Assembly (NCBI RefSeq): GCF_008727775.1
Contig: NZ_CP044232.1
Coordinates: 2,356,001 to 2,420,000, forward strand
DNA: 64,000 nt
Reading direction: 5' to 3'
From: Microbacterium lushaniae
Lineage (GTDB): Bacteria > Actinomycetota > Actinomycetes > Actinomycetales > Microbacteriaceae
In this document: positions 2,737-16,305 of the stretch, piece after piece
How positions within the stretch are numbered: position 1 is the first letter of the stretch
How the letters are laid out: each line of letters starts with the position of its first letter
Notes under the pieces: generated by a model
Database searches by the model: none
The model's input: only the letters and a program-made list of their open reading frames with translations
What the model was told of the DNA's origin: nothing
Program-made: the position numbers and the translations under genes

Positions 2737-2753
2737 TCAGTTGTTGAAGCGGA
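2737..2753. repeat. att repeat, left end of integrated element
   Basis: A 17-bp sequence TCAGTTGTTGAAGCGGA, perfectly repeated at 8034-8050. On the minus strand it encodes the last codons and stop of ychF (RFNN*). It is taken as the left crossover core of the island. Confidence 0.85.
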
Positions 2754-3003: not shown

Positions 3004-3459
3004 TCAATCGGTCGAGGAGGTTCGCTTGCTGAGCGCCTGACGGCTCAGGCCCGTCCGCGACGAGAGGGATGCCCATGACTCTCCCTCACTCCTGAGCCTC
3101 TGGACCAGCACATCGCGTTCGGCGAGCAGCGCCCGTTCGTGTCTGTGCAGCTTGCTGAGCTCCTTCGACAGATCGGCGATGCGTCTGAGGTCGACGGAGC
3201 GAGATGCTCCGCCCTGATCGATCCGTGTCGCCACGCCGCTTCCGATTCGCGAAGGCGATCGTCCCGTCTGTCCGGTGGCCACCGGACCCCGCGCCGCCTG
3301 CTCGACCCGTGGAGCATCGAGCGGGCGCCCGAACGCGTCGAAGCGCTGCTGATTGACTCCAAGAACCTCGTCTCCATTCGACTGACGCTCGTCATCCGAG
3401 CTGGAGGTCGAGGAGCGCTCAGCACCGACAATCGGCTTCTTTTGTCTCCTTTTCGTCAT
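3004..3459 (-). CDS. Basic coiled-coil / helix-turn-helix protein of the island
   Basis: A 151-aa protein, started at ATG 3459 (MTKRRQKKPIVGAE); an upstream GTG at 3516 would add 19 residues. The N-terminal 75 residues are basic, Ser/Gln/Arg rich and probably disordered. Then comes a charged helix (LSKELSKLHRHERALLAERD) and a C-terminal helix-turn-helix-like stretch, SWASLSSRTGLSRQALSKRT. It is divergent from the operon at 3671 with about 210 bp between them. A role as regulator of that operon or as excisionase-like protein is inferred from layout only. Confidence 0.65.
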   Translation of the reverse strand: MTKRRQKKPIVGAERSSTSSSDDERQSNGDEVLGVNQQRFDAFGRPLDAPRVEQAARGPVATGQTGRSPSRIGSGVATRIDQGGASRSVDLRRIADLSKELSKLHRHERALLAERDVLVQRLRSEGESWASLSSRTGLSRQALSKRTSSTD

Positions 3460-3616
3460 GCAACCAGGTTGACGTGCGATGCCAGTGAATTCAAGCCCTC
3501 GAGAGCCATCCCCCACTTGGTGCCTGCGTGCATCGCTATCGCTTTCGACTCCTACTCATCCTTCAGGCATCGGCATGTCGTCCGCGGGCTCGTCGCAGTG
3601 AAATGAGTATCTGGAG

Positions 3617-3647
3617 TTCCGGACACTGGTCGGTAACTCTGTATAGT
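3617..3647 (+). promoter_or_regulatory. Probable promoter of the two-gene island operon
   Basis: TATAGT at 3642-3647, close to a -10 consensus, with a weak CCGGAC at 3619-3624 as -35 (17-bp spacer). The ATG at 3671 is 23 nt further on, with a G-rich Shine-Dalgarno (GGGGGA) at 3662-3667. Confidence 0.45.
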
Positions 3648-3670
3648 TCGAGCAGCTCATCGGGGGATAC

Positions 3671-4504
3671 ATGGAGCAAGAGTTCGCGGAGGCAACGGCG
3701 GCGACTGCATCAGCACCGCTGAGACAGGGAGACGTGCTGGAGCATCTCGACCCGACCACGTCCATGTGGAAGCGCCATCTTCTGGTCATCACTGCTGACT
3801 GCGACTTTGCGAACAACAAGCATCGAGGCCGGATCACGTGCGTGCCACTCATCACAGCCGAGGAATACCTCCTGGCCATGCATCTTCCTAAGCAGCAAGC
3901 CCTATCTAGCGAACGGTTCGTACGAGAACTGCAAGAGGAGGTCGCGAAGATTGGCTCCTGGCGAATCACTGACGAGCGCCTCATGGAATGGGTACTCGAG
4001 GTCGAGTCCCCAACGGACATACCGGCTGCGCTCGGAGCAGACCCGACCCAAAGCGCAACGGTCGAACGGCTCGCGCGGGGCTTGAGAGCGGTAAATGAGG
4101 TCCACCACACGTTCGAGTTGGCCAGTGCAGCTCTGCTGGAAGCTCAGCTACTTCACAACCACCCGCAGTCGCGCGCGAACGCTGCCTCGCGGTTGCGCTC
4201 GACGGTCACGAATCTTTTCAAGCAGCAGCCGGGCGACGCCCTGTTCCTGAGCTCTATCGCCCCAGGGCATTCGCAAGGATACTTCGCGTACCTTCGGCAG
4301 ATCGAGCAAGTCTGGGAACAAGATGTAGCCCTCTCCACGGACAGAACCTCGCACGAGTATCACCGCATTTCTCGCTTCCCCGATCGGTACTCTCACGCGC
4401 TAGTGCAGCAGTTCGCCATGGTCTTCATGCCCATCGGGCTGCCTACAGAGTACGAATTGTCCCGGGGACGCTATGCAAGCGCTTTCGAAGGAGTCGTCGC
4501 ATGA
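3671..4504 (+). CDS. Uncharacterised 277-aa protein with a VITADCDF motif, coupled to a helicase
   Basis: A 277-aa soluble protein of no family I can name. Residues 17-65 are the most structured: RQGDVLEHLDP, then a hydrophobic strand ending in VITADCDFANNK, then RGRITCVPLI. A conserved-looking Cys-Asp pair after a beta strand suggests a catalytic or metal site, but this is inference. The middle is helical (ERLARGLRAVNEVHHTFELA), and the C-terminal part is mixed (GDALFLSSIAPGH, GYFAYLRQIEQVW). There is no signal peptide or membrane segment. Its stop overlaps the helicase start by 4 nt (ATGA), so the two are translated together and probably act together. Base composition is lower in GC than the flanks. 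Confidence 0.85.
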   Translation: MEQEFAEATAATASAPLRQGDVLEHLDPTTSMWKRHLLVITADCDFANNKHRGRITCVPLITAEEYLLAMHLPKQQALSSERFVRELQEEVAKIGSWRITDERLMEWVLEVESPTDIPAALGADPTQSATVERLARGLRAVNEVHHTFELASAALLEAQLLHNHPQSRANAASRLRSTVTNLFKQQPGDALFLSSIAPGHSQGYFAYLRQIEQVWEQDVALSTDRTSHEYHRISRFPDRYSHALVQQFAMVFMPIGLPTEYELSRGRYASAFEGVVA

Positions 4505-6729
4505 AGTATCTCGTCGCGTCTACCGCGGCCCTCCGAGAATTAGCGTCCGGCATCGCACTAGAGGCCGTCGGCGACTCAGCGACGCTACATCTCATCGAGC
4601 GAGAGGACGCGCTTTATGTCGTGGCGGCCGGCGACCGGGAGGATAGCCAGCGAGTCGTGATCTGTCGGCAAGACTTCCGCGGAGAGTCCTTGGTCCCATC
4701 GCACTTGAAGGGGCGCCGTGGGGAAGTTCTTGGACGCATCGCCTCGTTCGCCGAGAGGGCGAGGACGCTTCCTCTAGCCCTCCCCCGTGGTTGGCATCCG
4801 TTCAAACTGAACAACCTTGCTTCGTTCTTCGCCTCTGGTAACCCCGACGAGGGGTCTACCCGTTGGATCGCGGAGGTGACTCAATCAGCGAACAATGCCG
4901 TGATCTTCTGGCGAGCTACGACAGCGGCCAATAAGACGGAGCTGGAAGAGTTCGCCGCCGAGGCGCAGGTGCTCCCTTCAACCGTCCTCGCCGGCTGGGG
5001 GACTGCGTTTACCGAGGCGATGACCTACTTCGACCACCTTGCCCGGGACAGCTCGGGGCAGGTCGACATGTTTCTCCCCGCGATCGAAACGAGCGGGCCC
5101 CAGGACCAAACCCTTGACGGGTGGCTGGGGGCTGCCACCACAGAGCAGCGGGCGTTCATCGAAGCGTCAACCGAGCAAGCGATCCGCCTACGAGGCCCTG
5201 CTGGATCAGGGAAAACGCTAGCAATCACGCTAAAAGCGGTCCGCGAGGCGGTCTTGGGTCGCGAGAAAGGCGACGAACCACGGATCCTGATCGTGACACA
5301 TAGCTGGGCACTTGCCACTCAAATCGCGAATAACATCGACAAGCTCGGACTCGGCACCCTTCCGGAGATCGACGTGTTCCCTCTCCTTGCCCTCGCGCAA
5401 AGTCTCGCACCGCAGACTACTCACGCCGGCAGCGACTTGGTTGTAATCGGCGATGACAGTTTCAGCGGAAAGCGAGCACAACTTGACCAGGTGATTGAGG
5501 TTGTGCGCGAATTCGTCGCGTCCGACTGGATCACCTATCGATCTACTACCAGCGAAGGCCTCCGGGCACGACTGGATACCAATGATCCCTCCGCGCAATT
5601 AGCGCTTTGTTGGGACTTGCTCGTGGAGTTCGGCTCGGTCATTGGAGCGGCGGGGATCTTCCCTGGCGCCGGTTCTGAGGCTCGCTACATGCACACCGCA
5701 AGGTCCTCGTGGATGATGCCTGTTTCAGAGCCTGGCGACCTGCGCGTCATCTTCAAGTTGTACGAGCGGTACATGGAGAACCTGGACCAGCGGTCTCTCG
5801 TCACCTCTGATCAAGTGCTCGCGGACTTCCTGGGCTACCTCACAGGGCATGCGTGGAATCGCGGGCGCCGGTCGGTGGGCTACGACTTGGTCTTTGTGGA
5901 TGAGTTCCACTTGTTCAGTCCGCTTGAACGGCAAGTCCTCCATTTCCTCACGAGAGACGTCGAGCGATACCCCCGAATCTTCATGGCCCTCGATCCTCGC
6001 CAGTCGCCCTCAGAGGCGTTCATCGGCGGCGCAGCAGACGAGACGCAATCCCAAGCGACAAGCAACGCGATGGATGATGGGTTTGGGGACGTTACTAACC
6101 TGGAGCTCACCTCAGTCCACCGCTTCACTCCCCAAATTCTCGATCTAATTAAGCACGTGCACCTTGAGTTTCCGACTCTCGAACTCGGAGAGGACTGGGA
6201 TATTGACTTCTCACGTGTGGAATCCGTTAAGAGCAGCGGGTCAATCCCGAAGCTTGTCGTATCTGGGACGCGAGACTCGGAAACCAATGACCTTGTCAAC
6301 GCGGTACACGACTTGTACCCGCGCGGCCGCGTAGCGATCGCAGTAGTCGATACGCGCCACTGGCCCCGCTACAGCGACCTCGCGGCGACTATGGGCCGTT
6401 CCGGCAAGTTCCACGTCAGCGGCATCACAAGTCGCAGTGAAATTGAGGGCGTCGGATATCGCAAGAAGGGGCTGGTAGTCGGGAGCGCTGAGTACCTGGC
6501 TGGGCTGCAGTTCGACTCCGTCCTAGTCGCGGGGCTCTCAGACATGGCGACAAACTCAATGCCGGCTCACGAGAAGCGAAGGTTGCTCTCCCTGCTGTAT
6601 CTCGCGATCAGCCGGGCGGAATCCGAGGTTCGTATCTTCACCAATGAAGACGATGGCGGAGTCGCCGATGTGCTGGCGCGGGCCGTCTCGGTTGGCGTTG
6701 TTGAGCGGGTTCAAGGAACACTCCTGTGA
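4501..6729 (+). CDS. Superfamily 1 (UvrD/Rep-like) helicase with an unknown N-terminal domain
   Basis: 742 aa. The first 210 residues match no domain I recognise. The rest is an SF1 motor: Walker A GPAGSGKT at 232-239 (preceded by TTEQRAFIEA, a degenerate Q-motif region), Walker B VFVDEFH with Asp467-Glu468, motif III LDPRQSP with Gln501, motif IV SVHRFTP with Arg541, motif V GSAEYLAGLQF at 661-671, and motif VI LAISRA at 701-706 with Arg705. All key ATPase residues are present, so it should be an active ATP-dependent translocase or helicase. There is no nuclease motif. It is coupled by ATGA to the 277-aa gene. TTA codons and lower GC mark it as acquired DNA. Confidence 0.9.
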   Translation: MKYLVASTAALRELASGIALEAVGDSATLHLIEREDALYVVAAGDREDSQRVVICRQDFRGESLVPSHLKGRRGEVLGRIASFAERARTLPLALPRGWHPFKLNNLASFFASGNPDEGSTRWIAEVTQSANNAVIFWRATTAANKTELEEFAAEAQVLPSTVLAGWGTAFTEAMTYFDHLARDSSGQVDMFLPAIETSGPQDQTLDGWLGAATTEQRAFIEASTEQAIRLRGPAGSGKTLAITLKAVREAVLGREKGDEPRILIVTHSWALATQIANNIDKLGLGTLPEIDVFPLLALAQSLAPQTTHAGSDLVVIGDDSFSGKRAQLDQVIEVVREFVASDWITYRSTTSEGLRARLDTNDPSAQLALCWDLLVEFGSVIGAAGIFPGAGSEARYMHTARSSWMMPVSEPGDLRVIFKLYERYMENLDQRSLVTSDQVLADFLGYLTGHAWNRGRRSVGYDLVFVDEFHLFSPLERQVLHFLTRDVERYPRIFMALDPRQSPSEAFIGGAADETQSQATSNAMDDGFGDVTNLELTSVHRFTPQILDLIKHVHLEFPTLELGEDWDIDFSRVESVKSSGSIPKLVVSGTRDSETNDLVNAVHDLYPRGRVAIAVVDTRHWPRYSDLAATMGRSGKFHVSGITSRSEIEGVGYRKKGLVVGSAEYLAGLQFDSVLVAGLSDMATNSMPAHEKRRLLSLLYLAISRAESEVRIFTNEDDGGVADVLARAVSVGVVERVQGTLL

Positions 6730-6800
6730 CTTGCATCTAGGAGGCTGAGCGGCACTCGCCCTGCATCCCACCAGACCCAGAACGAGTTCCGAACCAGACG

Positions 6801-6835
6801 CTGCAGCGTTGCATTTTGGAGGCGCAACGTTGCAG
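6801..6835. terminator. Hairpin between helicase and integrase
   Basis: Arms CTGCAGCGTTGC (6801-6812) and GCAACGTTGCAG (6824-6835) pair at 11 of 12 positions around an 11-nt loop. No T-run follows. It may terminate the two-gene operon or serve as an integrase/excision control site, since each arm also contains the near-palindrome GCAACGTTGC. Confidence 0.45.
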
Positions 6836-6896
6836 ACAGCACCTATGGCCCTTCGGCATGTCGACGACGATAATGACGGTCGGAACGAGGTAGCCG

Positions 6897-8012
6897 ATGG
6901 CCAGCATCAAGCAACGCCCCGACGGCACGTGGCGCGCTCGCTACCGTGACGAACTCCGCAAGGAACACTCGCGTCATTTCCGCACGAAGCGCGACGCGCA
7001 ACGGTGGCTAGACGAGGTCACGTCGCAGGTTGTGACCGGTACCTACGTCGACCCGAAGGCTGGCGCCATTTCCCTCGGCGCGTACTTCGCCGATTGGTCG
7101 CAGCGCCAGGTGTGGGCGCCGACGACCGTCGTCGCCATGAAGCTCACGATCGCCAAATGCGCGTTCCGCGACGTGGAGCTCCGCAGCATCCGCCGCTCCC
7201 ACGTCGAGGCGTGGGTGAAGAAGATGCACGCCGGCGGCTACGCGTCCGGGACGATCAAGACGCGCGTCAACAACGTGCGCTCCGTGCTGCGCGCGGCCGT
7301 GCGGGACCGGCTCATCGCCAGCGATCCCTCGCTCGGGGTGACCCTCCCCCGCATGCGCAAGGCCGACATGGCGATGCGCATCCCCACACCCGAAGATGTC
7401 GCGGCGATCATGACCGCGGCCGACGAGTGGTTCCGACCCTTCATCGCCTTCTGCGCGTTCGCCGGCCTCCGTCTCGGAGAGGCCGCGGCGATGCAGCTGC
7501 CCGATGTCGACTTCCTCCACCGGCAGATCCGTGTGCGACGACAAGTGCAGCGCAAGCCCGGCGGCCTGGTCGACCTGCGTCCGCCGAAGTACGGCTCCGA
7601 GCGCAACATCCCCGCTCCCGAGGAGTTACTGAACCTGCTCAGCGAGCATCTCGCGAAGTGGAAGACGTTCGGCGCCGACAAGTGGCTTTTCTATGGCAAG
7701 AACAACGAGCCACCGCATCAGAACACCGTTCATTACTGGTGGAAGACGACGCTCCAGCGGGCCGGCGTCGAGGGGGTCAGGTTGCACGACCTGCGGCACT
7801 TCTACGCCTCGGGTCTGATTGCTGCGGGGTGCGATGTGGTGACGGTTCAACGCGCTCTCGGACACGCGAAAGCGACCACAACGCTCAACACGTACAGCCA
7901 TCTTTGGCCCACCGCCGACGACCGCACGAGGGCCGCTGCGGGTGCTCTCGTTGAAACCGTGCTGCGGACTTTTGCGGACTCTGTGCGGACTGAATCGCCA
8001 CATTCCGCGTAA
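6897..8012 (+). CDS. int: Site-specific tyrosine recombinase (integrase)
   Basis: 371 aa. The N-terminus is an arm-DNA-binding domain of phage integrases (MASIKQRPDGTWRARYRD), followed by a SAM-like core-binding domain (about 60-150) and the catalytic domain. Catalytic residues seen: Arg192 (FAGLRLGEAA), His297 and Arg300 (LHDLRH), His323 (LGHAKA) and the nucleophile Tyr333 (NTYSHLW). The set is complete, so it should be active. Its stop lies 21 bases from the right att repeat and it reads toward ychF. The last codons contain three TGCGGACT repeats. Confidence 0.95.
   Translation: MASIKQRPDGTWRARYRDELRKEHSRHFRTKRDAQRWLDEVTSQVVTGTYVDPKAGAISLGAYFADWSQRQVWAPTTVVAMKLTIAKCAFRDVELRSIRRSHVEAWVKKMHAGGYASGTIKTRVNNVRSVLRAAVRDRLIASDPSLGVTLPRMRKADMAMRIPTPEDVAAIMTAADEWFRPFIAFCAFAGLRLGEAAAMQLPDVDFLHRQIRVRRQVQRKPGGLVDLRPPKYGSERNIPAPEELLNLLSEHLAKWKTFGADKWLFYGKNNEPPHQNTVHYWWKTTLQRAGVEGVRLHDLRHFYASGLIAAGCDVVTVQRALGHAKATTTLNTYSHLWPTADDRTRAAAGALVETVLRTFADSVRTESPHSA
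7963..7991 (+). repeat. Right arm-type repeats TGCGGACT (three copies)
   Basis: TGCGGACT at 7963-7970, 7973-7980 and 7984-7991, spaced 10 and 11 bp, inside the 3' end of the integrase gene and 43 bp from the right att core. They match the two copies at the left end. Confidence 0.6.
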
Positions 8013-8033: not shown

Positions 8034-8050
8034 TCAGTTGTTGAAGCGGA
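8034..8050. repeat. att repeat, right end of integrated element
   Basis: The same 17 bp as 2737-2753. Here it forms the final RFNN codons and stop of the intact ychF gene. Confidence 0.85.
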
Positions 8051-9107
8051 ACTCCACGACGTCGCCGTCCTGCATCACGTAGTCCTTGCCCTCCAGGCGC
8101 GCCTTGCCCTTCGCGCGCGCTTCGAGCACCGAGCCGGCGGCGATGAGGTCGTCGAACGAGATGACCTCGGCCTTGATGAAGCCCTTCTCGAAGTCGGTGT
8201 GGATGACACCGGCCGCCTGCGGAGCCTTCCAGCCCTTGCCGATCGTCCAGGCGCGCGCTTCCTTGGGACCTGCAGTGAGGTACGTCTGCAGGCCGAGGGT
8301 GTCGAACCCGATGCGCGCGAGCTGGCTGAGTCCCGACTCCTCCTGGCCGGTTGAAGCGAGCAGCTCCGCGGCATCCTCGGGGTCGAGGTCGATGAGCTCC
8401 GACTCGATCTTGGCGTCGAGGAACACCGCCTGCGCGGGAGCGACCAGGGCGGCGAGCTCGGCCTTGCGCGCCTCATCCGTCAAGACCGCCTCATCCACGT
8501 TGAAGACGAAGATGAACGGCTTGGCCGTCAGCAGTCCGAGTTCCTTGATCGGCGCGATGTCGATGCCCGACGCCGACAGGAGCTGGCCCTTCTGCAGGGC
8601 TTCCTCGGCGGCACGCGCGGTCTCGAGCACCGAGGGGTCGAGCTTGCGGCCCTTGACCTCCTTCTCGTACCGGGTGATCGCCTTCTCCAGCGTCTGGAGG
8701 TCGGCCAGCTGCAGCTCGGCGTTGATCGTCTCCATGTCACTCGCCGGGTTGACGGCACCCTCGACGTGCACGACGTCGTCGTCGGCGAATCCGCGCACCA
8801 CCTGCGCGATGGCATCCGCCTCCCGGATGTTCGCGAGGAACTGGTTGCCCAGCCCCTCCCCCTCGCTCGCGCCGCGGACGATGCCGGCGATGTCGACGAA
8901 CGACACCACGGCGGGCACGACCCGCTCCGATCCGAAGACCTCGGCGAGCTTCTCGAGCCGCCGGTCGGGGAGGTTCACCACGCCGATGTTCGGCTCGATG
9001 GTCGCGAACGGGTAGTTCGCCGCGAGCACCTGATTCTTGGTCAGGGCATTGAACAGGGTCGACTTGCCGACGTTGGGGAGACCGACGATTGCGATGGTGA
9101 GAGCCAC
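8034..9107 (-). CDS. ychF: Redox-regulated ATPase / GTPase YchF
   Basis: A 357-aa Obg-family P-loop protein, the universal YchF (OLA1) that binds ribosomes and hydrolyses ATP. The start at GTG 9107 gives ALTIAIVGLPNVGKST at the N-terminus with the G1 motif; the longer upstream frame is not needed. Also seen are the IGVVNLPD segment, the NVDE box in FVFNVDEA, and the C-terminal TGS domain ending VVEFRFNN. TAGACT lies 8 nt upstream of the start. The 3' end is the integration site of the island, yet the coding sequence is complete. Confidence 0.96.
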   Translation of the reverse strand: MALTIAIVGLPNVGKSTLFNALTKNQVLAANYPFATIEPNIGVVNLPDRRLEKLAEVFGSERVVPAVVSFVDIAGIVRGASEGEGLGNQFLANIREADAIAQVVRGFADDDVVHVEGAVNPASDMETINAELQLADLQTLEKAITRYEKEVKGRKLDPSVLETARAAEEALQKGQLLSASGIDIAPIKELGLLTAKPFIFVFNVDEAVLTDEARKAELAALVAPAQAVFLDAKIESELIDLDPEDAAELLASTGQEESGLSQLARIGFDTLGLQTYLTAGPKEARAWTIGKGWKAPQAAGVIHTDFEKGFIKAEVISFDDLIAAGSVLEARAKGKARLEGKDYVMQDGDVVEFRFNN

Positions 9108-9172
9108 GGGAGTCCAGTCTACGTGGGCGGATGCTGCGACCCCGCGCCGCCCGGCTCCTCGCCCCTCAGCGC

Positions 9173-9239
9173 TGAGACACCACAATTCGTCCGAGACACC
9201 CGGCGACGCGGGGTGTTTCGGACGGGATGTGGTGCCTCG
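9173..9239. repeat. 67-bp nested palindrome, family A copy 1
   Basis: Outer arms TGAGACACCACA and TGTGGTGCCTCG enclose inner arms TCCGAGACACCC and GGGTGTTTCGGA. The unit GAGACACC thus occurs twice direct and twice inverted. A second copy of identical length lies inside mazG (49495-49561). Here it sits between ychF and the methyltransferase. Confidence 0.8.
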
Positions 9240-9285
9240 ACGGCGAGGAGGCGCGAGAGGCGGGGGCGCGAGAGGGCGGGGCCGG

Positions 9286-10035
9286 TCAGGGGCGGATGCT
9301 GCGGAAGGCGCGCGTGACGTAGGGAAGGTCGACCACCGCGTCGCCGACGGCGCCGATCTCGTCACAGACCGCCGCCAGCGCCTGCTCGATCCGGGCGCGC
9401 TCGGCCGGTTCGGCGGTGAGGACGTAGCTGCGGGATCGGGCCATGGCGAACAGGTCGTCGCGGGTCATCGGGCGGCTCCACCGCCACGTGCGGTCTTCGA
9501 GCCCGTCGAACGGCGCGGCAACACTCGGGCCGCCGCCGGCCATCATCTCCTCCGCATGGCTGCCGTGCATGGCGGCGGTCATCCGCCGCACCCACGGCGT
9601 GCGCTCGTCCCGCACGTTCCACACGAGGCCCAGCACTCCCCCCGCGCGCAGCACGCGGGCCGCCTCCGCCGAGGCAGCAGGCACGTCGACCCAGTGCCAC
9701 GCCTGACCCAGGAGCACCGCATCCACCGCCGCATCCGGCAGCGGCAGGGACTCGGCCCGTCCGACGAACGTGGGGACGCCGGCGACGTTGGCACGAAGAT
9801 TCTCGAGCATGCCGGCGTCTGGATCGATCGCCACGACCTCCGCGCCGTGCTCCACGATCGCCCGGGTGAGCTTGCCCGTGCCGGCTCCGACATCAGCCAC
9901 GCGCAGGGAGCGTCCCGCGCCGCGCACGGGCTGCAGCATCCACTCCACCGCCTCCGCGGGGTAGGACGGGCGCCCGGCCTCGTAGGTGTCGGCTGCGGCT
10001 CCGAACGACGTGGACATCTCTTCGCGGCTGGCCAT
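9286..10035 (-). CDS. Class I SAM-dependent methyltransferase
   Basis: A 249-aa Methyltransf_11-type enzyme. Motif I is VADVGAGTGKLTRAI (about residues 46-60), followed by an acidic loop VVAIDPDAGML and the post-I region PLPDAAVDAVLLGQAWHWVD, typical of methyltransferases close to UbiE. The C-terminal part is variable and decides the substrate, which cannot be read. TAGGGT sits 6 nt before the ATG, so the mRNA is likely leaderless. It is a single gene on the minus strand, separated from ychF by a 67-bp palindrome. Confidence 0.9.
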   Translation of the reverse strand: MASREEMSTSFGAAADTYEAGRPSYPAEAVEWMLQPVRGAGRSLRVADVGAGTGKLTRAIVEHGAEVVAIDPDAGMLENLRANVAGVPTFVGRAESLPLPDAAVDAVLLGQAWHWVDVPAASAEAARVLRAGGVLGLVWNVRDERTPWVRRMTAAMHGSHAEEMMAGGGPSVAAPFDGLEDRTWRWSRPMTRDDLFAMARSRSYVLTAEPAERARIEQALAAVCDEIGAVGDAVVDLPYVTRAFRSIRP

Positions 10036-10041
10036 TCCCCG

Positions 10042-10047
10042 ACCCTA
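10042..10047 (-). promoter_or_regulatory. -10 box of the methyltransferase gene (leaderless)
   Basis: TAGGGT on the minus strand with a 6-nt gap to the ATG at 10035. Confidence 0.6.
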
Positions 10048-10051
10048 CGCC

Positions 10052-10127
10052 GCGCATAACTCAGGACGAACCCGGTTGCGGGACGGACACCGGGACCCCC
10101 GACGCCGGATCCTCCTGAGTTCTGCGC
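10052..10127. repeat. 76-bp palindrome, family B copy 1
   Basis: Arms GCGCATAACTCAGGA and TCCTGAGTTCTGCGC pair at 14 of 15 positions; the centre is GC-rich and also partly self-complementary. It overlaps the last bases of the methyltransferase -10 region's upstream side. Confidence 0.75.
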
Positions 10128-10222
10128 GGCGCCCGGCCCGACCCCTCACTGCCGCCGCCCGGACTCACGTCCCCGCCACACGCCCGGCGCGCCTCTGCGC
10201 TGACCCCGCCCCGCACGCGTGT

Positions 10223-10300
10223 CGTGCAGAACTCAGGAGATCCGGGGCCGAGGCGGATGCGCGGGACCCCCTAACGCCGGAATCTCCTGAGTTCTGCACG
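10223..10300. repeat. 78-bp palindrome, family B copy 2
   Basis: Perfect 18-bp arms CGTGCAGAACTCAGGAGA and TCTCCTGAGTTCTGCACG. It has the same outer sequence as the copy at 10052-10127, in tandem 171 bp away. Confidence 0.8.
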
Positions 10301-10397
10301 CCCACCCCCGCGCCGTGGCAGCTCGACACGCCCGAGGATGCGGCCGGCCACGGCGCGCCTGACGGGCGCGGACGGCGGCCACCGGGAACCTGGGAGC

Positions 10398-10991
10398 GTG
10401 GCACTGGATTTCACCGCGATCGACTTCGAGACGGCGAATTCCAGCAATGCGTCGGCGTGCGCCGTGGGCATGGCCCGCGTGCGCGACGGACGCGTCGTGG
10501 CGACGGCGGGATGGCTCATCCGCCCGCCCGCCGGACACGACGTGTTCTACGACTTCAACATCGGCATCCACGGCATCCGCCCCGAAGACGTCGCGACGGC
10601 CCCTGGGTGGAGCGCGCAGCTGGACCGCCTGACGGCGTTCGCCGGCTCCGACGTGCTCGTCGCGCACAACGCCGGCTTCGACATGGCCGTGCTCCGCCGC
10701 GCCTGCGAAGCCACCGGCGACGTGTGCCCTCCCTACCGTTACCTGTGCAGCCTCCAGGTCGCCCGGCGCACGTACGAGCTCCCCTCCTACCAACTGCCGC
10801 TCGTGGCCACCGCGGCGGGGTTCGGCGAGTTCGCCCACCACGACGCCCTCGCGGATGCGCTGGCCTGCGCGCACATCGTCATCGACGCCGCACGCCGCGT
10901 CGCCGCCGACGACGTGACCGCGCTCGCCGAGACGACCGGCGTGCGCGTGTCCGCCATCCCTGCCACCGAGGGGATGCTGGCCGTCGCGTGA
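10398..10991 (+). CDS. DEDDh 3'-5' exonuclease (DnaQ-like)
   Basis: About 197 aa. ExoI motif FTAIDFETAN supplies the Asp/Glu pair, ExoII is VLVAHNAGFDMAVL, and ExoIII is HHDALADALAC with the final His-Asp, giving a complete DEDDh site. This is the fold of the polymerase III epsilon subunit and of stand-alone RNase T-like enzymes. No BRCT or UvrC-like extension is present. I start it at GTG 10398 because it directly precedes the first strand; starts further upstream (10338) are possible. It is followed by rmuC 25 bp downstream, suggesting a DNA-repair operon. Confidence 0.88.
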   Translation: MALDFTAIDFETANSSNASACAVGMARVRDGRVVATAGWLIRPPAGHDVFYDFNIGIHGIRPEDVATAPGWSAQLDRLTAFAGSDVLVAHNAGFDMAVLRRACEATGDVCPPYRYLCSLQVARRTYELPSYQLPLVATAAGFGEFAHHDALADALACAHIVIDAARRVAADDVTALAETTGVRVSAIPATEGMLAVA

Positions 10992-11016
10992 GGCGATGTC
11001 GGCGGCTCCCCGCACA

Positions 11017-12339
11017 ATGAACGGCATGGACGCACTGGCACTCCCCCTCGTCGCTATCGCCTGCGTGCTCGTGGGCGCTCTGGCGGGGTTCGCCGTGGGC
11101 ACGGCCCGTGCCGCGGCGCGCGGGATCGGCGAGCGTGCCCAGCTGACCGCCCGTCTTGCCGCAACCGATGCCGCGCGGGCGGGCGTGCAGGCGCAGCTGG
11201 ACCACCAGCAGCTGCTGTACCGCGAACTGGCGGGGCAGACCAGGGCGGAGCAGGCCGCGCGCGAGGAGCGCGAACGGCGGGAGCAGACCGTGCTGCGCGC
11301 CCTCGAGCCGGTGCGCGAGACCCTCGGCACGATGCAGCGGAAGGTCGAAGAGCTCGAACGCGACCGCGGCAGTCAGTTCGCGACGCTCAGCGAGCAGCTG
11401 CGGCGCGCCCATGAGGCCGACGAGTCGCTCCGGGCGACGACCGAATCGCTCGCGTCGGCTCTGCGCTCGGGCAGCACGCGCGGGGTGTGGGGTGAGACCC
11501 AGCTGCGGCGAGTCGTGGAGGCGGCGGGACTGCTCCGCTACGTCGACTTCGACACGCAGGCGACGATCACGACCGATTCCGGCGGCACGGCCCGACCCGA
11601 CCTGGTCGTGCGCCTTCCCGGCGGCAAAGCGCTCGCCGTCGACGCGAAGGTGCCACTGGACGCCTTCCTCGAAGCCAGCGCCATTCCGCTGACCGCCGAC
11701 GGCGCGGAGGGTGCGCGGCGCAAGGTCCTGCTCGAGAAGCACGTGCGAGCCGTCCGCGGGCACGTGGAGGCTCTGGCGAAGAAGGCGTATTGGGCGGGGC
11801 TGCCCTCGAGCCCCGAGTTCGTCGTGTGCTTCATCCCGAGCGAGTCGCTCCTGGCCGCCGCGCTCGAGGACGACCCCGGCCTGCTGGATTTCGCCTTCTC
11901 CAAGCGCGTGGCGCTGGCTTCGCCGGTGAACCTGTGGGCGGTGCTGAAGACGGTGGCGTACACGTGGACGCAGCAGGACGTCACGCAGGAAGCACGAGCG
12001 CTGTTCGCCCTGGGCAGCGAACTGTACGAGCGCATCGGCACGCTCGCCGGGCACGCCGACGATCTGCGCCGTGCGATCGAGCGCACCGTCGACAGCTACA
12101 ACCGGTTCGCCGGGTCGCTGGAGACCCGGGTGCTCGCGAGCGCTCGGCGCTTCCCGGGCATCGACGACACGAAGCTGGATGCGGTGGCCCCGCGGCCGCC
12201 CGTCGAAAGGGCCGTCCGGCGGTGGAGCGCGCCGGAACTGGTCACTCCCGCGTCCCCCGACCCTCTGCTGGCGGCAGACCTGGGCCACGTGCGCGAACGC
12301 ATCGACCTGGAGCGCGTCGAGCTCGACTCGACGGAGTGA
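11017..12339 (+). CDS. rmuC: DNA recombination protein RmuC
   Basis: About 440 aa. An N-terminal membrane anchor (residues about 5-25, PLVAIACVLVGALAGFAVG) is followed by a long coiled coil (about 45-150, rich in Glu/Arg/Gln), then the RmuC core with GVWGETQLRRVVEAAGL, RPDLVVRLPGGKALAVDAKV (Asp and Lys of a PD-(D/E)xK-like fold) and FIPSESLLAAAL. RmuC limits rearrangements at inverted repeats in E. coli; the nuclease activity is predicted. The start is ATG 11017 or 11026. It ends 16 bases from a convergent small gene. Confidence 0.93.
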   Translation: MNGMDALALPLVAIACVLVGALAGFAVGTARAAARGIGERAQLTARLAATDAARAGVQAQLDHQQLLYRELAGQTRAEQAAREERERREQTVLRALEPVRETLGTMQRKVEELERDRGSQFATLSEQLRRAHEADESLRATTESLASALRSGSTRGVWGETQLRRVVEAAGLLRYVDFDTQATITTDSGGTARPDLVVRLPGGKALAVDAKVPLDAFLEASAIPLTADGAEGARRKVLLEKHVRAVRGHVEALAKKAYWAGLPSSPEFVVCFIPSESLLAAALEDDPGLLDFAFSKRVALASPVNLWAVLKTVAYTWTQQDVTQEARALFALGSELYERIGTLAGHADDLRRAIERTVDSYNRFAGSLETRVLASARRFPGIDDTKLDAVAPRPPVERAVRRWSAPELVTPASPDPLLAADLGHVRERIDLERVELDSTE

Positions 12340-12763: not shown

Positions 12764-14086
12764 ATGTCCAGAACGTCGGATTACGCACCTATCGACGACA
12801 GCGGCGAGCTCGCCCGCATCGTCGATGGGCTGTGCGCGAATCAGGAAGCGGTCGCCGCGCTGGAAGCCGAGGCCGTCCTGCATTTCGCGGCGGGTATGCG
12901 CATCGCCCTCGACCGGATGGCAGCGAGGCCGCGGCCGCAGCAGACGCGCGAGATGGAGCTGCGCGCGGTCGCCGCCGAGATCGGCCTGGCGCTCCGGTTG
13001 AACGATCGCACCGTGCAGCGACGCATGAACGATGCCCTCGAACTGACGGAGAAGTTCCCCGCCACCGTCGACGGCCTCTCGGCGGGACGGATCACTCTGC
13101 GGCACGCGATGGCGATCTGCGACGCCGGGGCCGTTGTGGAGGAGCCCCGCGAGCGCGCGGCGTTCGAAGAGGTCGTGCTCGAGCGAGCGGAGCGAGAGAC
13201 GGTCGCCCGCACGAAGGCGTTCGCCGTCGCGCTGGCCGAGCGGATGCGGCCGGAGTCCATCACCGCGCGGTTCCAGCGCGCGGTCCAGGCGCGCATGGTC
13301 GCGGTCACCGAGATCGACGACGGGATGGCCCAGGTGCGCGCCATCCTCCCCGCCGCGGAGGCGTTCGCGGTGCATGACCGGTTGACCAGGCAGGCCCGAG
13401 CGATCCGCGCGATCGCCACGGAGCCGGACGAGGGCACTCCTTCACAGCCGACGGGCGAGGGGGTGAGCGTGCACGACACCCGCACGCTCGACCAGATCCG
13501 CGCCGACCTCTTCTGCGACCTGCTGCTGACCGGCCAGCCGGCCATCGATCCGACGAGAGACAGGCTCCCCGGTGGTTTGGGCGCCATTCGCGCCGAGATC
13601 CAGGTGACGGTCCCCGCTCTGACGGCGGCCGGACAGGACGACCGGGGCGCCAGTATCGAAGGAAAGGCGCCCATCGACGCCGAAACGGCCCGGCGCCTGA
13701 TGGCGGGATGTCCGGGGTGGGACCGGATCCTCACGCATCCGGTGACCGGAATGGTTCTCGCCGTCGACCGCTATCGCGCCGGGGCCACGATGGAACGTTT
13801 CCTCGCCGCTCGCGACGTCCACTGCCGATTCCCTGGATGTCGCCAGCCCGCGCGGCTCTGCGACCACGACCACAACCTCGATTGGGCACGGGGCGGAACA
13901 ACCGATGTCTGCAACATGGCGTGCCTGTGCAGACGACATCACACGCTCAAGACCGAGACCGAGTGGGCGGCCGAACAGCTCCCCGACGGATCGATCCGCT
14001 GGACCTCACCCCTTCAGCGCGATTACGTGGATGAGCCGACCCCGCGGGTGGTGTTCCTGCGCGACGGCGACCCGCCGCCCTTCTGA
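12764..14086 (+). CDS. DUF222 and HNH endonuclease domain protein
   Basis: 440 aa. The N-terminal about 300 residues are the helical DUF222 (13E12-repeat-like) domain, with the typical block NDRTVQRRMNDALELTEKFP. The C-terminus is an HNH nuclease: RDVHCRFPGCRQPARLCDHD supplies two Cys and the DHD, then HNLDWARGGTTDVCNMACLC and RRHHTLKTE supply the remaining Cys and His ligands. Families like this are multicopy in actinobacteria and often move with mobile DNA, but no mobile gene is adjacent. The biological role is not known. It stands alone between rmuC and glpX. Confidence 0.92.
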   Translation: MSRTSDYAPIDDSGELARIVDGLCANQEAVAALEAEAVLHFAAGMRIALDRMAARPRPQQTREMELRAVAAEIGLALRLNDRTVQRRMNDALELTEKFPATVDGLSAGRITLRHAMAICDAGAVVEEPRERAAFEEVVLERAERETVARTKAFAVALAERMRPESITARFQRAVQARMVAVTEIDDGMAQVRAILPAAEAFAVHDRLTRQARAIRAIATEPDEGTPSQPTGEGVSVHDTRTLDQIRADLFCDLLLTGQPAIDPTRDRLPGGLGAIRAEIQVTVPALTAAGQDDRGASIEGKAPIDAETARRLMAGCPGWDRILTHPVTGMVLAVDRYRAGATMERFLAARDVHCRFPGCRQPARLCDHDHNLDWARGGTTDVCNMACLCRRHHTLKTETEWAAEQLPDGSIRWTSPLQRDYVDEPTPRVVFLRDGDPPPF

Positions 14087-14098
14087 GGTCTCAGCCGG

Positions 14099-15088
14099 TC
14101 ACAGCCACTTCGAGGTGAGGTGCTCCGAGGTGACGCGCCGCAGCGTGCCGGAGGCGCTGCGCAGCACGACGCTCTCGGTGTAGACCCAGTCACCGTCGCG
14201 TCGCACGCCCGCCACCAGCTGGCCGTCGGTGACGCCGGTGGCCACGAAGATCGTGTTCTTGCCCTTGACGAGGTCGTCGGCCTCGTACACGTGGTCGTCG
14301 AACGTCAGGCCGGCGTCGATGCCCCTCTGCTTCTCGTCGTCGCTCTGCGGGCGCAGGCGTCCCTGGATGTGGCCGCCGAGCGCCTTGATGGCGCACGCGG
14401 TCACGATGCCCTCGGGGCTGCCGCCGATGCCGACGCACATGTCGGTGCGAGCGTTGTGGCGTGCCGCGTTGATGCCGCCGGCGACGTCGCCGTCGCTCAT
14501 GAGGCGCGTGCCGGCGCCGGCCTCACGGATGTCCCGGATCAGCTGCTCGTGGCGGGGACGGTTCAGCACCGATACGACGATCTCGTCCACGGGCTTGCCG
14601 AGCGCGGCGGCCAGGCGGTGGATGTTCTCGCCGATGGGCAGACGGATGTCGACGACGCCGACACCGGCGGGGCCGGTGACCAGCTTGTCCATGTAGAACA
14701 CGGTCGAGGCATCCAGCATCGTCCCGGCGTCCGAGACCGCGATGACCGACAGGGCGTTCTGGCGGCCGGCGGCGGTCAGCGACGTGCCGTCGATCGGGTC
14801 CACGGCCACGTCGCACTGCGGTCCGCGCCCGTTGCCGACCCGCTCGCCGTTGTAGAGCATGGGGGCGGAGTCCTTCTCGCCCTCCCCGATGACGATCGTG
14901 CCGTCGAAGTTCACGGTGGAGAAGAACGCCCGCATGGCGTCGACGGCGGCACCGTCGGCGGCCTCCTTGTCGCCTCGTCCGATGAAGGGAACCGCACGGA
15001 TGGCGGCGGCCTCCGTCGCACGCACCAACTCGAGTGCGAGGTTGCGATCGGGATGCAGGGGGCTCATGTCGGCCGTCAGACTCACCAT
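14099..15088 (-). CDS. glpX: Class II fructose-1,6-bisphosphatase (GlpX)
   Basis: 329 aa, normal for the family. It hydrolyses fructose 1,6-bisphosphate in gluconeogenesis. Metal and substrate motifs seen: GRGDKEAADGAAVDAM, VIGEGEKDSAPML, DVAVDPIDGTSL (Li+-sensitive phosphatase signature), and GGSPEGIVTACAIKALGG. The start at ATG 15088 is supported by TAGGCT 6 nt upstream (leaderless); ATG 15067 is internal. It is divergent from the FBP aldolase gene, with 185 bp between them, so opposing steps share one control region. Confidence 0.96.
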   Translation of the reverse strand: MVSLTADMSPLHPDRNLALELVRATEAAAIRAVPFIGRGDKEAADGAAVDAMRAFFSTVNFDGTIVIGEGEKDSAPMLYNGERVGNGRGPQCDVAVDPIDGTSLTAAGRQNALSVIAVSDAGTMLDASTVFYMDKLVTGPAGVGVVDIRLPIGENIHRLAAALGKPVDEIVVSVLNRPRHEQLIRDIREAGAGTRLMSDGDVAGGINAARHNARTDMCVGIGGSPEGIVTACAIKALGGHIQGRLRPQSDDEKQRGIDAGLTFDDHVYEADDLVKGKNTIFVATGVTDGQLVAGVRRDGDWVYTESVVLRSASGTLRRVTSEHLTSKWL

Positions 15089-15094
15089 GTGGTC

Positions 15095-15100
15095 AGCCTA
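15095..15100 (-). promoter_or_regulatory. -10 box of glpX (leaderless)
   Basis: TAGGCT on the minus strand, with a 6-nt gap to ATG 15088. Confidence 0.6.
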
Positions 15101-15183
15101 TCCAGCAGGCTGTCACAAACCGGCCGAATCCCGCCGCCCCGCCCGCGAAGGATTCGCGTTTCTTTACAGCGGGGAAGAAGGGT

Positions 15184-15238
15184 GGGTCCCGGGTGGTCCC
15201 ACCGGGACTCTCAAGCGCCCAGGGCCCTTCGCTAGAGT
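15184..15238 (+). promoter_or_regulatory. fba control region: hairpin and -10 box
   Basis: A short inverted repeat around GTCCCGGGTGG / CCACCGGGAC (about 15186-15208) precedes TAGAGT at 15233-15238, a likely -10. The ATG at 15274 has AGGAG at 15264-15268. The hairpin could be an operator; this is inference. Confidence 0.4.
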
Positions 15239-15273
15239 GACCGGGAACCCCACTCCACAACCGAGGAGCCCCT

Positions 15274-16305
15274 ATGCCCGTCGCAACGCCCGACCAGTAC
15301 GCCGAAATGCTCGACCGCGCCAAGGCCGGCGGCTTCGCGTACCCCGCCATCAACGTCTCCAGCTCGCAGACCATCAACGCGGTGCTGCAGGGCCTCACCG
15401 AGGCGGGTTCGGACGGCATCCTTCAGGTCACCACGGGCGGTGCCGACTACTTCGCCGGCCACACCGTGAAGGGCCGCGCCACGGGCGCGATCGCGTTCGC
15501 GAAGTTCGTCACCGAGGTCGCCAAGAACTACCCGATCACCGTCGCCCTGCACACCGACCACTGCCCCAAGGACGCACTCCCCGGCTTCGTCCTGCCACTG
15601 CTGGAGGCCTCCGAGGAGGAGGTCAAGGCCGGCGGCAACCCGATCTTCCAGTCGCACATGTGGGACGGCTCGGCGGTGCCGCTGGATGAGAACATCCAGA
15701 TCGCGCAGGAGCTGCTCCCCCGCATGAAGGCCATCAACGCGATCCTCGAGATCGAGGTCGGCGTGGTCGGCGGCGAGGAGGACGGCGTCAAGCACGAGGG
15801 GTCCAACGAGGCCCTCTACACGACCGTCGCCGACGTGACGAAGGCCGTAGAGGCGCTCGGGCTCGGCGAGAACGGCCGCTACATCTCGGCACTGACCTTC
15901 GGCAACGTCCACGGCGTCTACAAGCCGGGCAACGTCAAGCTCCGCCCCGAGCTTCTCGGCGAGATCCAGGAGGGCATCGCGCAGCGCTTCGGCACGGGCC
16001 CCAAGCCGCTCGACCTCGTCTTCCACGGCGGCAGCGGCTCCACCGACGAGGAGATCGCCCTGGCGGTGCGCAACGGCGTGGTGAAGATGAACATCGACAC
16101 CGACACGCAGTACGCCTTCACGCGCTCGATCGCCGGCTACATGTTCAGCAACTACGACGGCGTGCTGAAGGTCGACGGCGAGGTCGGCAACAAGAAGCAG
16201 TACGACCCGCGCGCGTGGGGCAAGGTCGCCGAGACGGCGATGGCCGCGCGCGTGGTGGAGGCCACGCAGCAGCTGGGCTCGCACGGCAAGTCGCTCGGCG
16301 CGTAA
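15274..16305 (+). CDS. fbaA: Class II fructose-bisphosphate aldolase
   Basis: 343 aa, zinc-dependent class II enzyme of glycolysis and gluconeogenesis. Zinc and substrate residues: HTDHCPKD (His93, Asp95, His96), EHD-equivalent KHEGSNEALYT, the glycine loop FGNVHGVYKPGN, and the phosphate-binding VFHGGSGSTDEE followed by KMNIDTDTQYAFT. It starts at ATG 15274 with AGGAG 5 nt upstream. It is divergent from glpX and ends in a strong hairpin at 16316-16347. Confidence 0.97.
   Translation: MPVATPDQYAEMLDRAKAGGFAYPAINVSSSQTINAVLQGLTEAGSDGILQVTTGGADYFAGHTVKGRATGAIAFAKFVTEVAKNYPITVALHTDHCPKDALPGFVLPLLEASEEEVKAGGNPIFQSHMWDGSAVPLDENIQIAQELLPRMKAINAILEIEVGVVGGEEDGVKHEGSNEALYTTVADVTKAVEALGLGENGRYISALTFGNVHGVYKPGNVKLRPELLGEIQEGIAQRFGTGPKPLDLVFHGGSGSTDEEIALAVRNGVVKMNIDTDTQYAFTRSIAGYMFSNYDGVLKVDGEVGNKKQYDPRAWGKVAETAMAARVVEATQQLGSHGKSLGA

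Follow-up and report, generated by a model that had tools for sequence, protein, structure and literature searches.

What do two overlapping genes on a small integrase island of Microbacterium lushaniae do, and do they belong together? The window analysed here is a stretch of 64,000 nt (GCF_008727775.1, NZ_CP044232.1, positions 2,356,001-2,420,000, forward strand), in which a 5.3-kb island sits at the 3' end of ychF. Its cargo includes gene A, encoding a small protein, and gene B, encoding a superfamily 1 (SF1) helicase. An earlier note on this DNA had described a 277-amino-acid (aa) VITADCDF gene and a 742-aa helicase overlapping by ATGA on such an element, and both open reading frames (ORFs), the overlap and the flanking repeats were present. 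We found that genes A and B form a real, co-inherited unit, which is patchy and mobile and is carried by islands, plasmids and phages in bacteria that are only distantly related. The pair is probably an undescribed anti-phage system.

The helicase gene lay immediately downstream of gene A in 16/16 actinobacterial loci. One of these (L002) came from the window's genus, and the other 15 came from searching 84,980 species genomes for strict peptide patterns, which gives a lower bound and returned actinobacterial loci only. The same order was seen in the single IMG/VR prophage contig (L019/L020). In addition, a gene annotated as a hypothetical protein stood directly 5' of the helicase in 10/11 plasmid or phage regions, the two genes overlapping by up to 7 bp or lying up to 13 bp apart. 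These ten were from Agrobacterium (two), Undibacterium, Paraburkholderia, Azoarcus, Rhizobium, Leisingera, two E. coli plasmids and the Klebsiella phage ST16-OXA48phi5.4; the eleventh (L026) was a damaged E. coli plasmid copy adjoining IS1 and lacked gene A. Co-occurrence, which the earlier note had proposed as a test of the pair, was thus found in all three sets. The helicase was cut near Walker A, beside IS21 genes, in the Rhizobium copy and split into two ORFs in the Undibacterium copy. In Lentzea albidocapillata (L017:8001-8827) the small gene was split over two frames, and the helicase frame was open.

The coding regions of A and B overlapped by 4 bp in 17/17 loci, with helicase starts set by us; the overlap in L012 was ambiguous, since the start scored there was TTG and translation could instead begin at an ATG six bases downstream. 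The divergence of the two proteins was correlated with r = 0.984 over 24 pairs, and 0/2000 permutations reached this value. Because the overall correlation partly reflects the phylum split, the 15 actinobacterial pairs are reported separately, and they gave r = 0.917, again with 0/2000 permutations as high. The calculation omitted L002, which is the same place as L070, the cut locus L006, the split locus L017, L023 and L030 with their broken helicases, and L026, which lacks gene A; the actinobacterial subset also omitted L008, a near-copy of L007; the distant rows included L028 and L029, near-identical E. coli plasmid copies. A possible natural A-B fusion, P0209 (1,017 aa), was considered and rejected, as it gave no alignment to gene A past residue 254 and is more likely a frame slip. 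Both P0209 and the short P0226 are rows of the helicase alignment A2.

Gene B matched the Pfam families UvrD-helicase (PF00580, E 2.6e-8) and DEAD (PF00270), both above the cut-off, and a PDB sequence search gave weak RNA-helicase matches. At the positions that we take the SF1 motifs to occupy, motifs I, Ia, II, III, IV, V and VI were intact in the window's protein and in the six relatives printed, and motif II ended in H. UvrD, Rep and PcrA were among the top structural matches of the predicted model (predicted local distance difference test, pLDDT, 79.6; predicted template modelling score, pTM, 0.46). Motifs I-VI and the UvrD-like fold place gene B among the SF1A (UvrD/Rep/PcrA) helicases. 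The protein search returned 390 relatives at E ≤ 1e-3, the best 120 of which were listed. The alignments of the structure work used 46 of these 120 helicases and 47 of the 120 listed partners, each together with the window's protein.

For the N-terminal ~205 residues of the helicase, hhalign detected homology with the two Agrobacterium copies (probability 95) and none with six other proteobacterial copies (0.2) or with all eight together (5.8). The VIA-align rows span 204-742, beyond this domain. No nuclease domain was found in gene A or gene B in library scans of the window's proteins and of relatives. The earlier picture of a helicase with all SF1 motifs, an N-terminal domain of no known family and no nuclease therefore stands.

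The search with the gene A protein returned 223 relatives at E ≤ 1e-3, the best 120 being listed. Gene A had no family match in Pfam, PADLOC, NCBIfam or PHROGs, Pfam and PADLOC gave no named family for its relatives, and a PDB sequence search gave no credible match. The database copy of the protein has 256 aa and a later start; the ATG start of the 277-aa form is credible because most homologues shown in the 48-row alignment begin in the same region. Conservation was assessed over 59 gene A sequences, 49 actinobacterial and 10 distant. Residues Q19, G20, A42, C44 and D45 were identical in 58/58 rows with letters there, and P59, R209, Q246 and G256 in 59/59. The VITADCDF string corresponds to residues 39-46. 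Actinobacterial rows have TADCD at the loop within it; among the nine distant copies with letters there, three proteobacterial ones have [NT]ADCD and the remaining six TARCD. An A-x-C-D loop is thus invariant across two phyla. Six distant proteins that were aligned shared 14-25% identity with the window's and kept the motifs in common.

Gene A is predicted to be a MazF/CcdB-fold protein. In the structure model a MazF/CcdB-like (SH3-like) barrel is interrupted by a helical insertion of ~120 aa (residues ~63-185), and MazF/PemK and CcdB match the model over its full length except for this insertion; a viral structure library gave nothing credible (best E 0.34). Residues 43-47 were the sole stretch of three or more residues below pLDDT 50, and this A-x-C-D region might be a mobile loop that orders upon binding. 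The protein that the earlier note called an unknown CD-motif protein still has no family by sequence, and it can now be described, by prediction, through its fold. Two family-name readings were rejected. Descent from MazF found no support at the sequence level, since hhalign against 23 PemK/MazF sequences did not score above shuffled controls, and Pfam gave no PF02452 (MazF/PemK) match for the window partner, the aligned members or the six distant partners. The UniRef names of P0069 and P0107 contain "PIN like" or "PIN domain", while no PIN family was among the printed Pfam matches and the predicted fold is MazF/CcdB.

The likeness to MazF in sequence, from an hhalign alignment with a non-significant score, consists of a QG[D/T] start placed opposite the RG[D/E] start by forced global alignment and a V-P element opposite VPvTs. 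What sets gene A apart from MazF and CcdB is the helical insertion, the invariant A-x-C-D loop, the helicase partner and the lack of a significant profile match. The catalytic arginine of MazF, whose position we assume and mapped through a weak hhalign register, would correspond to R35, and this residue was R in 49/49 actinobacterial rows and 0/9 distant rows with letters. Because the position is not kept family-wide, the toxin-like fold probably carries, if any active site, one that is not MazF's.

The distribution of the pair was patchy. Gene A was found in 2/198 relatives and 1/396 phylum genomes, the own genome counted in both, by a first-look search that may miss distant copies, and gene B in 1/396 phylum genomes. 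In tblastn against plasmids, the window's gene A hit one record (an Agrobacterium plasmid, 25% identity) and the helicase hit 91. The Klebsiella partner, used as query, retrieved 88 plasmid records, 78 from Escherichia and 82 predicted to be conjugative. Matches occurred in 113 of 5,426 complete E. coli genomes, always on plasmids, and 109 of these genomes had a near-full pair. Searching proteins with this query gave 82 relatives, and every source name given was hypothetical or uncharacterized protein; relatives occurred in Klebsiella, Citrobacter, Raoultella, Aeromonas, Serratia, Vibrio, Photobacterium and others. The window's gene A had no match among phage records, and the one phage with a gene A relative was found through the helicase and then confirmed with that phage's own partner. 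An integrase or integrase fragment lay within 2 kb of the pair in 5/17 loci besides the window (L004, a fragment; L008; L009; L017; L020), compared with 1/19 control stretches that held one anywhere. In Mycolicibacterium parafortuitum (L009:5023-7968), just upstream of the pair, there are genes for an integrase-like protein and for proteins of 111 aa and 510 aa, which suggests a different mobile element.

We infer the defence role from context, and it is strengthened by the phage locus described here, by the plasmid and integrase associations and by the patchiness. In the P2-like Klebsiella phage ST16-OXA48phi5.4, the portal gene and the GPA replication gene (PF05840, 7.6e-107) flank the pair, which occupies 8931-11992 of MK416015.1. 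A multiubiquitin-ThiF-DUF6527 operon adjoins each of the two Agrobacterium copies, and multiubiquitin-ThiF genes lie ~3 kb from the Undibacterium copy; such multiubiquitin-ThiF operons have a role in defence. One of the two other ychF-linked islands examined (L059) carries a protein with Mrr_cat and AAA_16 domains. The gpA-gpQ locus of E. coli P2-like phages is, according to PMC9122126, a hotspot with many anti-phage genes. A related Klebsiella phage, Kp4845-1 (L072), whose adjoining 4 kb is 96-97% identical, has another cassette at gpA-gpQ (12934-15880, minus strand), namely an AAA ATPase (PADLOC NsnB, E 6e-77) followed by a 338-aa protein without a family match, plus a 250-aa membrane-like protein.

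Some neighbours deserve mention in their own right. The ATPase and 338-aa genes of L072 are themselves a candidate two-gene system. On the Agrobacterium pusense plasmids the multiubiquitin-ThiF-DUF6527 operon occupies L021:7718-13528 and L022:1-4681 beside the pair, and in L021 a further UvrD-type helicase of 1,133 aa is next to the operon (PADLOC RTasHel 1.7e-73, GajB 1.8e-63). A 1,359-aa hypothetical protein without a PADLOC match lies directly downstream of the pair on the Paraburkholderia plasmid (L024:7881-11960).

Several observations weigh against a defence role. Most actinobacterial copies stand among apparently ordinary genes, as judged by eye. The 19 control stretches, one of which held an integrase anywhere, came from the window's genus and order only and were not genus-matched. 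PADLOC gave weak E1-E2 matches for ThiF and none for multiubiquitin in the operons beside the pair; it detected only the helix-turn-helix (HTH) part of the L059 protein, whose AAA_16 match was below the Pfam cut-off. The second ychF-linked island, L061, carries a relaxase rather than a defence gene. In addition, the P2 hotspot carries non-defence cargo too, according to PMC9122126, and its transfer from E. coli to this Klebsiella phage is our own extension.

The plan of a helicase plus an effector is known, and the putative effector here is unfamiliar. Hachiman likewise has a helicase sensor controlling a small effector and differs in that HamB is an SF2 helicase and HamA a nuclease; neither HamA nor HamB was among the PADLOC matches printed for these proteins. 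Gabija resembles the pair in having two genes, one of them a UvrD-type SF1 helicase, and GajB models made up most PADLOC matches of these helicases, all weak (E 3.5e-4 for the window over a small part of the profile, down to 4.8e-13 for relatives). PMC10952713 reports that GajB binds DNA termini and hydrolyses (d)ATP or (d)GTP, promoting the activity of GajA, the nuclease effector that partners this helicase. In place of the GajA ATPase-TOPRIM nuclease, the present pair has a small protein (263-323 aa among the partners scanned), for which PADLOC gave no family in the window and six distant partners. The order is also partner-helicase with an overlap, and the helicase has its extra N-terminus. 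The pair is not Gabija, because the GajA partner is absent.

Rousset et al. 2022 (PMC9122126) describe the Helicase + DUF2290 system, which is similar as a two-gene cassette of a helicase and an unknown protein on phages or satellites. No scanned partner here matched DUF2290 in Pfam: none was found in the window partner (E ≤ 1), among the 25 printed of 27 families from 48 members (E ≤ 0.5) or in the six distant partners (E ≤ 0.1), so the pair is not this system either. UvrD, MazF and CcdB did not turn up in the text of PMC9122126, nor did UvrD, MazF, PemK and CcdB in the passages of PMC9519451. Searches of open-licence PMC, judged by titles, abstract openings and passages, gave no paper recognised as an account of a defence system with a MazF- or CcdB-fold protein and a UvrD helicase. 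Five protein accessions looked for there were not in print, and phage ST16-OXA48phi5.4 is named in six papers; subscription papers and preprints lay largely outside this scope, as did the supplementary tables of PMC9122126, which may list the Klebsiella arrangement. That the earlier note did not recognise the pair as a named system agrees with these comparisons, as the libraries gave nothing for A and generic helicase families or weak GajB for B.

We put the probability at about one half that A and B are a single mobile anti-phage (or anti-mobile-element) module with a helicase as sensor and a toxin-fold protein as effector. We hypothesize a complex of A and B, a division into sensor and effector, and A-x-C-D as the working site. 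Gene B, a UvrD-type motor with an extra N-terminal domain, would load on DNA ends or replication intermediates of the invader and, by analogy with GajB, would sense or process the invading DNA. Gene A would be kept in a complex with the helicase, and engagement of the motor would activate or deliver it. It would then act through the A-x-C-D loop (with Q19-G20, P59, R209 and Q246) on nucleic acid or on a DNA enzyme, and infection would be stopped with or without loss of the cell. A more specific version can be offered only tentatively: in an unnamed, widespread defence system, the SF1 motor would act as trigger for a toxin-fold subunit, the MazF site being replaced by a site at the Ala-x-Cys-Asp loop and the helical insertion serving as the motor-docking domain.

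The roles of the two proteins might also be reversed within defence. The helicase would then be the effector, stripping, unwinding or blocking invader DNA, and gene A would be non-toxic, a subunit for recognition or loading whose MazF/CcdB-like barrel serves in binding. The complete and strongly conserved motor, the MazF catalytic arginine missing from the distant copies of A and the lack of a nuclease domain in either protein all suit this account. In our judgement, however, an invariant polar A-x-C-D loop across two phyla exceeds the needs of a plain binding surface, and the helicase of Gabija, according to PMC10952713, partners a nuclease effector. We consider this account doubtful but the most serious of the rivals. 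The MazF/CcdB fold of A, the gene overlap and the carriage on plasmids, a prophage and integrase-linked loci would equally fit a toxin-antitoxin-like maintenance module, in which A is the toxin and the helicase the antidote that stabilises plasmids, prophages and islands. Yet a 742-aa motor with every catalytic motif seems to us too much for a mere antidote, and the copy in genome G006 (L070) has ordinary-looking neighbours and no nearby integrase, so we hold this explanation to be unlikely.

UvrD/Rep-type helicases act in replication, and the presence of the pair on a phage and on conjugative plasmids could point to an accessory function in replication, recombination or transfer for the carriers rather than to defence. 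The carriers are, however, unrelated (an integrase island, a P2-like phage, IncF and rhizobial plasmids). Among phages the partner was found only in two records of one Klebsiella phage, while 12 relatives shared the adjoining genes at 95-99% identity, and L072, the sole relative with ORFs listed, has a different two-gene cassette at that place. An accessory function is improbable to much the same degree as maintenance. An ordinary UvrD paralogue with an upstream neighbour by chance would agree with the generic helicase families given by Pfam, and it is very improbable, being already contradicted by the fixed gene order, the overlap and the matched divergence over two phyla. The anti-phage module with a helicase sensor and a toxin-fold effector is the reading that we prefer.

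The features of the island are collected in Table 1. The repeat copies were spaced 5,297 apart, and the G+C content of the island was 0.61 compared with 0.71 in the remainder of the window. The integrase had matches in 26/198 genomes at E ≤ 1e-40, the own genome counted. The small HTH-like protein had no Pfam family above the cut-off, and a 54-aa stretch of it recurs at 54% identity in the sister island L059. In the ychF stretches fetched from 14 other genomes of the genus, the 17-bp repeat was present as exactly one perfect copy in five (L118, L119, L123, L127 and L128), as more than one copy in three (L122, L124 and L130), as imperfect copies only in four, and was absent in two. The single copies are consistent with empty sites and are no proof of them, because a conserved ychF end predicts one copy anyway.

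Table 1. Features of the ychF island and its two-gene cargo (window coordinates).
Feature	Coordinates	Strand	Basis
Left island end, 17-bp direct repeat (att copy)	2737..2753	+	repeat search
Small HTH-like protein, 170 aa, possible element regulator	3004..3516	-	phrog_686, E 9e-5
Gene A, predicted MazF/CcdB-fold protein, 277 aa	3671..4504	+	ORF, alignment, structure model
Codons of gene A residues 41-50, T-A-D-C-D loop	3791..3820	+	alignment
Gene B, SF1 (UvrD-like) helicase, 742 aa, start inside gene A	4501..6729	+	ORF, Pfam, structure, motifs
Gene B N-terminal domain, ~205 residues	4501..5115	+	no family match in library scans
Tyrosine integrase of the island	6897..8012	+	PF00589, 2.7e-26
Right island end, 17-bp direct repeat (att copy), last bases of ychF	8034..8050	+	repeat search; core recurs at ychF of genus relatives
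ychF, host gene with the integration site at its 3' end	8034..9365	-	longest ORF shown

In 2/11 fetched integrase loci (L059 and L061), ychF stood beside the integrase, and ORFs were listed for those two. L059 (genome G070) is a sister island at the same ychF site, with an integrase 91% identical to the window's over 256 residues. Its repeat copies, at 1540 and 14641, are 13.1 kb apart, and the second has one mismatch. The island encodes the 1,359-aa HTH and Mrr_cat protein with the sub-threshold AAA_16 match (3289-7368, minus strand), which resembles an NLR-type defence gene, and it also carries genes resembling a toxin-antitoxin pair. The ychF-linked island L061 (genome G082) has an integrase with 64% identity and encodes a TrwC-type relaxase-helicase at 8737-11502 (plus strand).

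If the preferred reading is true, the pair would be another widespread helicase-plus-effector immune module and would bring together the toxin-antitoxin barrels and the SF1 helicases, two large families seldom found in combination. The invariant Cys-Asp loop would be a concrete target for study, and since E. coli plasmids and a Klebsiella phage carry copies, direct tests in laboratory E. coli are feasible. Should the more specific version also hold, it would mean a new effector chemistry on the MazF/CcdB barrel, common to actinomycetes, rhizobia, E. coli conjugative plasmids and a P2-like phage.

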